A DNA stretch of 32,866 nucleotides, from positions 1 through 32,866 of the forward strand of contig CAMDDA010000011.1 of assembly GCA_945890755.1 (NCBI GenBank), in the 5' to 3' direction. Within the stretch, counting starts at the first letter, position 1; each line of letters starts with the position of its first letter. Positions 5,771 through 16,436 of this stretch are shown here, piece by piece. The translations under genes and the position numbers were made by a program. Below the pieces are notes generated by a model. The model worked only from the letters and a program-made list of their open reading frames with translations, had not been told where the DNA came from and did not search any database. The DNA is from Candidatus Kuenenia stuttgartensis (GTDB lineage Bacteria; Planctomycetota; Planctomycetia; Pirellulales; UBA1268).

Positions 5771-5942
5771 TTCTTGGGGTTCGACCGCCTGTGGAGCCGG
5801 CTCGGGGGCGGTACAAGTCGCCGCTGCGCGGTCTTTCAGATCGTCGCGGGACCTCGAAGACTCGGTCCAAATGCTCCTTGAGCTTGCACCGACCCCCTCA
5901 CCTCCTTGTTCCGATTCTTCAGGACCATAGAACGGCTCGTGA

Positions 5943-6076
5943 GGGGTTGCCCAATGCCCTGAGAGCCGGCGTTGGCGGCAAGCGAAGGCAGGATGCCGAG
6001 AGCGCAGCCGCCATCGAGCGAGCGCCGGGCATGGAGGCCCGTAGCGAGCGTCCGGCGACGGGGCATGGGCAACCCC
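5943..6076. repeat. dispersed structured repeat, copy 1 (134 bp)
   Basis: The terminal arms GGGGTTGCCCAATGCCC (5943-5959) and GGGGCATGGGCAACCCC (6060-6076) pair along about 16 bp with one bulge. Internal arm I pairs TGGCGGC (5973-5979) with GCCGCCA (6007-6013) and is capped by GGCA-GGA-TGCC. Internal arm II is CGGGC-ATGGAG-GCCCG (6026-6041). The linkers CGAGCGAGCG and AGCGAGCGTCCGGCGACGGG are identical to copy 2 at 16225-16357. The arms differ in sequence between copies while pairing is kept, which suggests a folded RNA or a palindromic non-autonomous element. Confidence 0.75.
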
Positions 6077-6162
6077 GAACTTTCACCACAGGACGTCGAC
6101 CCGTTGCGGAATAGTGCGGGCCCGCGGTGTTCATGCCTCGGGCCCCACACGGAGTGTGCGGA

Positions 6163-7116
6163 CTACGGGGCGGATGATGCGACCCAGAGGAGCCAGGCGA
6201 CGGGGGCGGCGAAGGCGAGGGAGTCGATCAGGTCGAGCACGCCGCCGAGTCCACCGAGGATGCGGCCGGAGTCCTTCGCGCCGAGTTCCCGCTTCACGAG
6301 CGATTCGGCCAAGTCACCCACCATGCCCGCGATGCCGACCGCGAGGCCGAACACAGGCCAGCCGCCCCAGGGCCTGGCCTGCGCGACGAAGCCGGCCTGC
6401 TCGAACACGAGCCAGGCCGCGAGCAGCGAGCCGGCGAGCGAGCCGACGGCTCCTTCCCAGGTCTTCCCTGGGCTGAGCAGCGGGGCCATCTTCGTGCGGC
6501 CCACGAGCGAGCCGACGATGTAGGCGAGGATATCGCCCGCTTTGACGACCGCGATCAGGCTCACGAGCGGCAGGACGCCGAGATGCCCGGGGCCACGTTC
6601 TTCGGGCCCGAGGCTCTCCACGCAGAGCAGCCGCAGCGCCACCATGAAGGCCAGCGGCAATCCGAGGCCGAGCGCGATGAAGGTGCCTGCGGTCACGCGG
6701 TCGAGCGCACCGTCGCCCGGTCTGTAGCCGGGAATCTCGGCGGCGATCACGAGGCCGCAGGCAGCGGCACAGGCCAAGGCCGTCCAGCCGAGCGTGCCCA
6801 GGGGCGAGAGCGTGGACGCGGCGGCGAACGCCGCCCCGCCGGCAGCGGCCGAAAGCACGATCGCCACGGTCGCAGCCATCACGACGCCCCACCGCACATG
6901 CACGCCCCGCGCTGCAAAGAGCCCTGCGCTCTCGGCCGTGCCCCGCAGTGCCACAAGCACGGCCAGCGGCAGGAGCCACCACACGGGCCGGGCTCCGCCG
7001 ACACCGACCGCATCGGCCCAGGTGAGCGCCACGATCATCGTCACGGCGAATGCCGACACGACGGCGCGGGAGACGAGCGAACTGCGGGCCGCGGCCGATG
7101 AAGCGGGATTGGTCAC
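6163..7116 (-). CDS. cdsA: phosphatidate cytidylyltransferase
   Basis: CdsA makes CDP-diacylglycerol from phosphatidate and CTP, the branch point of phospholipid synthesis, in the inner membrane. The 317-aa protein has about eight hydrophobic segments. The C-terminal signature is visible as LVKRELGAKDSGRILGGLGGVLDLIDSLAF, and SPGKTWEGAVGSL is the other conserved block. The usual LPGHGGILDRIDS appears here as LGGLGGVLDLIDS, so H and R of the Prosite-style pattern are replaced while K, D and the final D are kept. The ATG overlaps the uppS stop as ATGA (7113-7116), the common uppS-cdsA pairing. Confidence 0.9.
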   Translation of the reverse strand: MTNPASSAAARSSLVSRAVVSAFAVTMIVALTWADAVGVGGARPVWWLLPLAVLVALRGTAESAGLFAARGVHVRWGVVMAATVAIVLSAAAGGAAFAAASTLSPLGTLGWTALACAAACGLVIAAEIPGYRPGDGALDRVTAGTFIALGLGLPLAFMVALRLLCVESLGPEERGPGHLGVLPLVSLIAVVKAGDILAYIVGSLVGRTKMAPLLSPGKTWEGAVGSLAGSLLAAWLVFEQAGFVAQARPWGGWPVFGLAVGIAGMVGDLAESLVKRELGAKDSGRILGGLGGVLDLIDSLAFAAPVAWLLWVASSAP

Positions 7117-13670: not shown

Positions 13671-14678
13671 CAGCGTGAGCGACTCACCGCCGGCCCGCGT
13701 CGCCGCGGCCCTCCACACGGCCGGATCGACGTCGTCGGCCACGAACCGCAGCGAGCCATCGGCCATGGCCACGTTCACGCCCCCCGGGTGCCGGCTCCGC
13801 GCCGCCCGCCAGCCGTAGCCCGCGTACATCTTGGCGAGATCGGTCGTGCTCATCAGCGCGGAGAGGCAGTCGAGCGTCGGATCATTCGGCTGGCGGGCAT
13901 GGTTGTAGAGGGTGGTCCGATACTCGCCGTTGGCCCAGGAGAATCCGCGGAGGTCGGTGAAGTTGTAGTAGAAGGGGCGGCTGCATGCGGCGTCGGTGAG
14001 CGGTGCGACGAACACGAATCCGTAGCCGGTCGCCGCCGTGATGCCTGCCGCAGTGCGGCCCGCCGTCGGCCCGTCACCGAGCAGGCTTTCGGAAAAGGCC
14101 ACGGTCTTCGAGAGTCCATCGGCCACGTCCTTGAGCCGCGTGCGGGAGTTGATGCCGAACAGCCCGGTGGTGTCGAACGGCGTGCCGCCGCCGGCGCCGC
14201 TGCCGGTGCACCCGGCATAGTTGGTCGGGCCGAACAGGCTCGATACGGCCGTCATCCGGTCGGCCGGGCAGAGAAAGAGCGGCACCGTCAGCTTCACGAT
14301 CGGTTTGTTCTGCGGTGCGATCGAGTCGGGGGTCAGGCCGATGTAGAGCGGCACCGTGAGGTCGAGCCCTTTGAGCAGCTGCTCCTCCTCGTAGTAGGGC
14401 GAGAGATGCGCGAGCAGCGACCAGCGGAAGAACTGATGCGGAAAGTCGGGCCGGGCCGCCCACTCGCGGGATTCGGCACCGATCGGCAGTCGGCCGCGGG
14501 CTGCCTCATGACTGGCGGAGGCCAGGGCGATCTGCCGCAGGTTGTTGGTGCAACTCGTCCGCCGCGCCGCCTCGCGAGCCGACTGCACCGCCGGCAGCAG
14601 GACGGCGACGAGCGTGCCGATGATCGCGACGACGACGAGCAGCTCGACCAGCGTGACGCCGCGGCGTCTGATGTTCAT
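13665..14678 (-). CDS. DUF1559 pseudopilin-like protein (gene 2)
   Basis: A 337-aa DUF1559 protein with the prepilin-like N-terminus [37 protein letters not shown], then [11 protein letters not shown]. The intact H-X9-DG signature, [17 protein letters not shown], is near the C-terminus. Such proteins occur in large paralogous families in planctomycetes and are processed like type-II secretion pseudopilins. The start overlaps the upstream PEP-CTERM gene's stop as ATGA (14675-14678). The stop TAG lies in a palindromic repeat. Gene 1 at 11409 is the same family, but the two differ strongly outside the N-terminus. Confidence 0.9.
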
Positions 14679-15673
14679 CGGCGCGCCACCCGTCGCCGAA
14701 CCATTGCCGCCGCGGCGGCGATGCCGATCCCGGCCGTGACGATCGTCGAGGGCTCCGGCACCGGCGCGACGACGAGGCCGCCGATCGTGCCGAGCCCGGA
14801 GTTGAACGTGCTGGTGAGGCTGCCGCCGGCGTCGAACTGATAGATCGCGCCGCCGCCGCCCGCGCTGCCCACGATCAGGCCGCCGTCCGAGAGCAGGGCC
14901 AGGGGCGATGCCCCGAACAGCACGTTGGTCGTGCCGAACGGCGAAGTCGTGTCGTTCAGTAGGTTCGTCTGCAGGATGCTGCCGTCCATGATGCTCGACG
15001 TGTAGAGCGTGGTGCCTCGGATCCCGATGCCCGTGGGGCCATAGAGCCCGGTCGCCGTGCCGCCGGCGACAACTTCGCCGACGAACACGCCCGCGGCGTC
15101 GAACTTCACGACCGGTCCCGAGGCATTTTGCGTTCCAAAGTCGTACGTTTGATTGCTGACGTACAACGATCCATCTTGGCCAAACGCGAGCCCCGGACTG
15201 CTGGCGAGCGAGCCGCCCGACGTGTAATCGCTGACGGCGATCGTGCCGCCAGTCGCATTGCCGACTTTGACGATCGTCCCCGTGTCTTCGAAAAACGGAT
15301 TGCGACCGACGAGCAGATCGTTCCCCTTGAATACCAGGCTCCCGGGAAACACCTCGGACGCCGCGAACGTGTAGACCGTGGAGAGTGAGTTATTCGTCAG
15401 GTTGAGCCGCCGGATCGAGGGTACGACCGTCGAAATATTCCCGGACTCACCGATATAGAGATTCCCGTCTGGCCCCAAGGCTAGGCCTGCTGCTCCGACA
15501 ATGGCCCCCGAGCCCGAAAGCGTCACCGCCGTTCCGGCTGGATCGGCAGAGTCGTAGCGAATAATCCTGCCGTCGGTATTGCTCACGGCATACACCGTAT
15601 CTCCCCGCGCGGTGGCAACGAGGGCGGCACAGGCGAGGATAATGACGACAAGGCGGGTGAAGGCGTGGTGCAT
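14675..15673 (-). CDS. PEP-CTERM protein with SMP/NHL-like beta-propeller
   Basis: A 332-aa exported protein with a signal peptide ([17 protein letters not shown]) and repeated propeller-like blades ([48 protein letters not shown]). The C-terminal sorting tail is [20 protein letters not shown] followed by RRR: the PEP motif, a hydrophobic helix and a basic end, recognised by an exosortase. It is translationally coupled to a DUF1559 gene. No exosortase gene lies in the window. The start region shares a 19-bp string, AGGCGTGGTGCATGGCGGG, with the small ORF at 26475. Confidence 0.85.
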
Positions 15674-15952
15674 GGCGGGCTCCGGAAGGCGGCAGTCGGG
15701 TCGCGGACAGCGACGACTGGTGACGGGCTGGTGAACTTAGGATGCGACAGAGGGCGCACTATCTGCCGCACATGCGGCGGATCGCGGCGGCATCGGGCAA
15801 CCGTCGGCGAAACACGCGACGGTCAGCAGTTCACGAGCAGTTCCTTGCGAAGAGCGAAGAATGGCAGAACGTGTCGTTCAAGCCGCCGGATTGTAGGCCG
15901 CTGGAGAGCCGGTCACAAGCGAATTCAAGACACCAGATAATCCAGGCCAAAT

Positions 15953-16022
15953 TGCCCGACTAGGATTCGAACCTAGACAAAGGGAACCAAAATCCCTTGT
16001 GCTACCGTTACACCATCGGGCA
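15953..16022 (-). tRNA. tRNA-Gln (anticodon TTG)
   Basis: The minus strand folds into a 70-nt cloverleaf: acceptor TGCCCGA/TCGGGCA, D arm GTGTAACGGTAGCAC, anticodon stem AGGGA/TCCCT with loop TTTTGGT (anticodon TTG at 15990-15988), and T arm CTAGG-TTCGAAT-CCTAG. U at position 1 fits tRNA-Gln. CCA is not encoded. Confidence 0.92.
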
Positions 16023-16224: not shown

Positions 16225-16357
16225 GGGGCTGCCCATGCCCCGAGAGCCGGCGTATGCCGCCGAGCGCAGCCAGGATGGCGGAGCGAAGGCGGTATTCGAG
16301 CGAGCGAAGGACAGGATGTCCGAAGCGAGCGTCCGGCGACGGGGCGTGGGCAGCCCC
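16225..16357. repeat. dispersed structured repeat, copy 2 (133 bp)
   Basis: The terminal arms GGGGCTGCCCATGCCCC (16225-16241) and GGGGCGTGGGCAGCCCC (16341-16357) pair along 17 bp with one G-T. Internal arm I pairs ATGCCGCC (16254-16261) with GGCGGTAT (16288-16295) and is capped by GCCA-GGA-TGGC. Internal arm II is GGACA-GGA-TGTCC (16309-16321). Relative to copy 1, the fifth pair of the outer stem changes from T-A to C-G, and both internal arms differ while still pairing. The element lies 79 bp past the rex stop, in the same relative orientation as copy 1 to cdsA. Confidence 0.75.
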
Positions 16358-16405
16358 GACTGGCAGCGCTGATCAAACGTGCCCGTCACTTCGTGATGAG
16401 CTACC

Positions 16406-16421
16406 GGAGCAACGGGCCTAC
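16406..16421. repeat. half copy of the GTAGGCCCGTTGC palindrome
   Basis: GGAGCAACGGGCCTAC matches the right half of the palindrome seen at 13558-13638. It lies 16 bp from the rex stop, between the stop and structured repeat copy 2. Confidence 0.55.
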
Positions 16422-16436
16422 GAGGGAGCAAGCGGA

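Follow-up and report, generated by a model that had tools for sequence, protein, structure and literature searches.

Within the window, i.e. the whole stretch of 32,866 nucleotides that was analyzed, two related intergenic sequences are located at 5943–6076 and 16225–16357 on the plus strand. An earlier note on this DNA had described them as a two-copy element whose stems co-vary, representing either a candidate structured RNA or a palindromic mobile repeat, and the locus raises the question which of these two readings applies. The two copies, their coordinates, the shared linkers and the arm sequences all matched the sequence as claimed. Likewise, sequence checks agreed with the replacement of T5947-A6072 by C16229-G16353 in the outer stem and with the descriptions of arm I, its GGA tip and arm II. 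The pairing of the arms held overall and needed small corrections only: arm I of copy 2 contains one G.T pair, and the arm II tip of copy 1 (GGGCA/GGCCC) lacks the last pair.

Fold of the copies adjacent to cdsA and rex

Copy 1 (134 nt), located between a phoH-like gene and cdsA, was matched by blastn and by a covariance model (122.8 bits), and copy 2 (133 nt), which adjoins rex, scored 142.7 bits with the covariance model. The neighboring genes encode CTP_transf_1 (cdsA), PhoH and a Rex-type protein. As single strands, both copies fold into a three-way structure in which an outer stem of approximately 17 bp leads via the junction helix GCCGG/CCGGC to two arms. In copy 1, the 5' side of the outer stem (5943–5960, plus strand, with one bulged A) pairs with its 3' side (6060–6076, plus strand), as deduced from covariation and folding; among the copies of this genome, covariation was seen at seven pairs of the outer stem. 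The near-invariant junction helix GCCGG (helix 2; 5965–5969, plus strand) has its partner at 6052–6056. Arm I (5973–6013, plus strand) reads TGGCGGC ... AGCG ... GGCA-GGA-TGCC ... AGCG ... GCCGCCA and represents one of three arm-I haplotypes, and arm II (6015–6050, plus strand) consists of CGAGCGAGCG, the GGGC tip and AGCGAGCG, forming helices 6–7. The outer stem of copy 2 is formed by 16225–16241 and 16341–16357 (both plus strand), again based on covariation and folding.

Folding energies of the plus-strand RNA amounted to −87.8 and −91.3 kcal/mol for copies 1 and 2 (z = −7.2 and −9.7, respectively), whereas the minus strand reached −78.4 and −75.6 kcal/mol, which is 9–16 kcal/mol worse. DNA folding parameters gave results in agreement with those obtained with RNA parameters. 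Both hairpin arms carry an AGCG/AGCG internal loop and usually end in a GGA loop. AGCG faces AGCG in arm I, and AGCGAGCG faces AGCGAGCG in arm II. Within these loops canonical pairing is confined to the inner G-C/C-G pairs; the A and G on either side can only oppose each other as A.G mismatches, possibly representing sheared pairs. The element, measuring approximately 131–134 bp, is devoid of coding capacity and is bounded by perfect or near-perfect terminal inverted repeats of 10–17 bp (GGGGYTGCCC...GGGCARCCCC) that close the three-way junction.

Family size, distribution and covariation

Describing the element as present in two copies understated its abundance. By means of blastn, about 40 strong copies were found in the genome of origin (G000), and 36 copies served to build the covariance model R1, which retrieved 72 matches at E ≤ 0.01 in this 3.44 Mb draft, a lower bound because several copies sit at contig ends. 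Contigs of planctomycete MAGs repeatedly terminate inside the element. All genomes of the genus that were examined contain it, many of them with at least 56 matches; copy numbers of at least 50–70 per genome are characteristic of a single planctomycete family. When the order was sampled evenly, matches came from 20 of the 22 other genomes belonging to this family and from no other family, and in the phylum sample they were restricted to the genome of origin. Within the family, G022, G023 and G034 gave no matches. Named matches belong to Planctomycetota, Planctomycetaceae and Pirellulales MAGs, and the assignment of the family to Pirellulales follows these record titles.

Covariation, a test of which the earlier note had proposed, exceeded that of shuffled alignments. 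Among the 36 copies from the genome of origin, 97.0% of cells pair, and 15 pairs show two-sided changes versus 9.5 ± 1.2 in shuffles; the covariation score of 0.198 (versus 0.088) was attained by none of 500 shuffles. In a second set of 35 copies, most of them the sole representative of their genome, 98.1% of cells pair and two-sided changes occur in 26 pairs; this set was fitted to the covariance model, which somewhat favors pairing. As a control, shifting the 3' partner by 1–3 columns reduced pairing to 31–44% of cells. Moreover, RNAalifold recovered nearly the same fold unaided.

Two very diverged relatives (L164:440–569 and L172:117–245) share the outer stem and the fold but have other linkers (AGTGAACG, GGAAGG tips), which may point to a wider superfamily.

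Occupancy and orientation of sites among relatives

Nearly all genomes of the genus that were examined retain the phoH-cdsA synteny; the element is present there only in G000 and in its closest relative, G008. Beside rex, a strong copy was found only in G000 among these genomes. Genomes of the genus that are empty at the cdsA and rex loci carry from 5 to at least 56 copies elsewhere. The cleanest pair of filled and empty sites is G008 L215 versus G000 L175, showing a length difference close to the element length. Further absences were recorded for L028|L201, L182|L170 and L226|L178, and the vacant sites hold other palindromes. No target-site duplication was demonstrated in these filled/empty pairs, which are diverged; GA...GA flanks are common but are conserved between copies.

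Most sites are common to G000 and G008 at approximately 89% nucleotide identity, and movement is therefore considered slow or old; as G008 regions were mostly selected for holding a copy, the proportion of conserved sites comes out too high. At three of about 21 common sites, namely the cdsA copy, L024/L212 and L017/L182, the element is inverted in situ. At cdsA, the inverted block in G008 comprises the element, the HP2 hairpin described below and the spacer. The notion of a palindromic mobile repeat is thus backed by the many copies, their scatter over intergenic regions, the differences in presence between relatives and the in-situ inversions. One copy (L018:3037–3167 and L230:212–342), for which G000 and G008 show 100% identity along 130 nt, lies within an open frame or immediately in front of it, ahead of a signal-peptide-like sequence. 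Its identity suggests local constraint, and by analogy with the Rickettsia palindromic elements (RPEs) it possibly represents an in-frame insertion.

Gene context

Genes were predicted with a simple purpose-made codon-score gene finder. Outside predicted genes lie 114 of the 115 good copies, and one overlaps a gene. Considering the 94 copies with both neighbors, 30 (32%) are located between convergent genes compared to 113 of 674 gaps (17%) in the background, and 12 (13%) between divergent genes compared to a background of 23%. This pattern suggests promoter avoidance more than a role in 3' UTRs. Among the same copies no sense preference was observed, the 3'-facing neighbor being antisense in 59 and sense in 53 cases. 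The arrangement 3' of a minus-strand gene in the same relative orientation, noted for cdsA and rex, therefore does not hold as a rule, and the common side is attributed to chance, since copies show no orientation bias toward neighboring genes. A structured RNA in the 3' UTRs of cdsA and rex, as had been envisaged, finds no support, given this lack of bias, the inversion of the cdsA copy in G008 and the emptiness of both loci in most genomes of the genus.

Arm exchange and strand asymmetry

Since covariation is commonly regarded as proving a functional RNA, the way in which the stems change deserves attention. For the arm survey, the 115 good copies originated from G000 and G008, and the arm-I stem was readable in 97 of them. 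Three exact stems, TGCCGCC/GGCGGCA (38), TGCTGAC/GTCAGCA (25) and TGGCGGC/GCCGCCA (21), account for 84 of these 97; the other 13 comprise three other perfect stems, seven with one G.T pair and three with one A.G mismatch. Chimeric stems, in which the two sides would belong to different main types, were absent from the 97. Arm types are linked only loosely to one another. Among 20 orthologous G000/G008 pairs, differences affect arm II in 13 cases, the tip of arm I in seven and arm I itself in 11, eight of the latter involving the whole stem. The orthologue of copy 1 illustrates such changes, since in G008 its arm I is TGCCGCC and its arm II tip GGACA. The outermost ten pairs seldom differ across the 20 sites, with the figure for one pair inflated by an indel. 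In summary, arms are replaced as units, with complete hairpins taken from a limited set. Hairpin-tip inversion as the origin of G-C/C-G flips was ruled out, since the GGA loop keeps its sequence.

When polymerases switch templates in inverted repeats, arms become homogenized and spacers inverted (PMC8604942), and the process can mimic compensatory mutation via multi-base changes (PMC8794818). Template switching or conversion can rewrite arms without selection at the RNA level. Since whole-unit replacement is expected from these processes, it represents weaker evidence for RNA selection than had been assumed. The G.T/A.C asymmetry and the persisting AGCG mismatches still speak for constraint on one strand: G.T exceeds A.C in the outer ten pairs (20 versus five) and in arm I (seven versus zero in 97 stems). 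This bias, together with the conserved AGCG loops, points to the displayed strand as the folding strand. Accordingly, the earlier statement that conserved unpaired segments with changing stems indicate selection on structure was weakened by the whole-unit changes in situ, and it retains its force with respect to the AGCG loops and the strand asymmetry.

Proposed nature of the element

The element is probably a MITE/REP-like mobile palindrome that is non-autonomous and acts as single-stranded DNA, with its arms kept paired. The displayed strand would be the active one, folding when the DNA is single-stranded during replication or as a transposition intermediate. A host- or element-encoded enzyme would recognize the folded strand and copy the element to intergenic sites. 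Both sides of an arm would be rewritten together, either by template switching inside the palindrome or by conversion with other copies as donors, so that perfect pairing would be maintained, and copies whose arms are broken or whose AGCG loops are lost would fail to propagate. A further-reaching version is put forward tentatively: the element may be a single-stranded DNA (or RNA) mobile element of a new kind, featuring constant ends and linkers, exchangeable hairpin cassettes and a lineage-specific enzyme that recognizes the junction and the AGCG/AGCG loops on one strand, so that its ‘covariation’ would mainly reflect whole-arm replacement and not point compensation.

Strong covariation, the better fold of the plus strand, which would also fit a functional RNA, the G.T over A.C bias, the invariant AGCG loops and the enrichment between convergent genes would all be compatible with a multi-copy structured non-coding RNA or a 3' UTR element serving termination, mRNA stability or protein binding, with stems under RNA selection. 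Such a role is regarded as unlikely, however, given the missing orientation bias, the in-situ inversions, the poor conservation of the cdsA and rex loci within the genus, the lack of an Rfam match and the rarity of G.T intermediates in arms despite frequent arm switches. A passive repeat, multiplied by slippage or recombination, palindromic by template switching alone and functionless, would fit the arm data, as template switching accounts for homogenized arms, inverted spacers (PMC8604942) and multi-base compensatory changes (PMC8794818). Moreover, no associated transposase was found among the Y1, RT and IS110 families searched, and the intergenic regions in question are densely populated with other palindromic repeats. 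We nevertheless consider this quite improbable: homogenization should erase the A.G mismatches of the AGCG loops, which are kept in essentially all copies, the strands are asymmetric, and consistent ends in more than 50 dispersed copies require some copying process. A GTAG/CGTC-type REP mobilized by a RAYT (Y1/HUH) transposase would likewise be palindromic, intergenic, high-copy and strand-specific in its fold, and GTAG-like repeats (GTAGGCCCGT...) occur nearby. The element's length of 134 instead of 20–40 bp, ends (GGGG...CCCC, flanked mostly by GTGA and GAAC) devoid of a GTAG or CGTC tag, the absence of Y1 transposases from G000, G011, G012 and G013, all with at least 49 copies, and the lack of flanking elements at the Y1 loci examined make this origin very hard to credit.

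As a mobile palindrome, the element extends the planctomycete repertoire by a family-wide mobile element. A high-copy DNA palindrome with strong covariation, the arms of which are rewritten whole, inverted and lost, provides a natural test case for distinguishing RNA selection from template switching or conversion. It also poses the question which enzyme moves it, RAYT, RT and IS110 genes being absent from copy-rich genomes.

Comparison with known systems

At the gathering threshold, Rfam (4227 families) yielded only the tRNA for the whole window, and 5850–6180 gave no match even at E ≤ 1. The GTAG/CGTC REP definition does not apply either; the earlier note knew of no matching named family. 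A published description was not found in the open-access literature. The phages, plasmids and viral contigs searched contained no match and thus gave no indication that the element spreads on phages or plasmids. Screening for Y1 transposases (PF01797) was negative in G000, G011, G012 and G013, and element-like ends were absent beside Y1 genes at the loci examined. RAYT/Y1, reverse transcriptase and IS110 were rejected as required mobilizers, since G011, G012 and G013 (93–97% complete) lack all three yet hold at least 49 copies. An autonomous parent between the half-elements of L034 (1439 and 4839) was also dismissed, as these looked like separately truncated copies. Integron attC sites, with RYYYAAC ... 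GTTRRRY cores in cassette arrays, were excluded by the GGGGYTGCCC/GGGCARCCCC ends and the dispersal of copies over many contigs.

The element is short, non-coding and bounded by terminal inverted repeats (~134 bp, repeats of 10–17 bp) and is therefore classed as MITE-like. It belongs to no named family and is a new family of a known kind. Bacterial MITEs such as Correia/NEMIS, ERIC and RUP are shorter than 200 bp, non-coding and intergenic, possess terminal inverted repeats and give stably folding transcripts (PMC2229807). The present element shares its size below 200 bp, non-coding nature, terminal repeats and intergenic location with them but differs in having no visible TA ends, demonstrated target duplication or detected parent insertion sequence, and in harboring variable arms inside constant ends. 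RPEs measure 105–146 bp and are dispersed within a single lineage, featuring terminal inverted repeats and a long stem-loop fold (PMC2229807). Size, terminal repeats, fold, dispersal, restriction to one lineage and the copy in or before an open frame resemble RPEs, whereas these are often fused in frame within genes, which 114 of 115 copies avoid here. The lineage differs as well, as do apparently the sequence and, in addition, the three-way junction, the AGCG loops and arm exchange. Membership was rejected on the confinement to one planctomycete family in the order and phylum samples.

GTAG/CGTC REPs, 20–40 bp long and carrying the respective tag, are known from Planctomycetes (PMC3733652). 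Those associated with RAYTs are likewise high-copy extragenic palindromes with a strand-specific fold, but size and tag do not fit and Y1 genes are missing from several copy-rich genomes. Volvox palindromes and the double-hairpin elements of Allomyces mtDNA are selfish-looking intergenic hairpin repeats with nested insertion (PMC2670323), reminiscent of the palindrome-in-palindrome copies observed here. In contrast, they reside in organelle genomes, are shorter (14–79 nt in Volvox plastid DNA) and bear no sequence relation to the element.

Companion repeats and flanking sequences

To the right of copy 1, a module of 90 nt (6077–6169, plus strand; GAAC..CCACAGG..GTCGACCC..hairpin..GGACTACGG) is conserved 3' of many copies in both genomes. 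Its consensus, GAAC..CCACAGGAGGTCGACCCGC..GGAATAG..GGGCCTGCGGT..ACCGTGGGCC..CCGCATGC-GGA-GCATGCGGACTACGG, includes a covarying GGA-loop hairpin of its own. The module overlaps the cdsA stop codon, which is supplied by its final bases, and recurs right of many G008 copies, e.g., L184, L200 and L183. In an alternative flank class, GGGAGGnnn | element | n'n'n'CCGGCGCC (L024, L212, L217, L205, L184, L198, L209), at least three flanking bases pair and vary together, lengthening the outer stem.

A second palindromic repeat of approximately 107 bp, HP2 (GGGGGCGGTRCAAG...CTTGCACCGACCCCC), is separate from the element and often located directly left of it. In the window it occupies 5800–5906 (GCTCGGGGGCGGTACAAG...GCACCGACCCCC); further occurrences were recorded at L024, L032, L033, L174, L175, L177 and L204. 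HP2 is also inserted inside arm I of the element, forming a recurring chimeric subfamily of approximately 197 bp. Some copies thus hold HP2 or a CGGGCACCGATCCGCKTTAGCGGATTGGTCG hairpin at the arm tip and represent palindromes within palindromes. GTAG-tagged palindromes (GTAGGCCCGTCACTCCGTGACGGG.../...CCCGTTGCGGAGCAACGGGCCTACG), resembling the GTAG REPs reported from Planctomycetes (PMC3733652), are common intergenically, e.g., at 16380–16425 in the window and in the flanks of L038, L033, L026, L030 and L012. Furthermore, the minus-strand gene at 14675–15673 encodes a protein with a C-terminal PEP-CTERM motif and adjoins the tRNA gene at 15952–16022.
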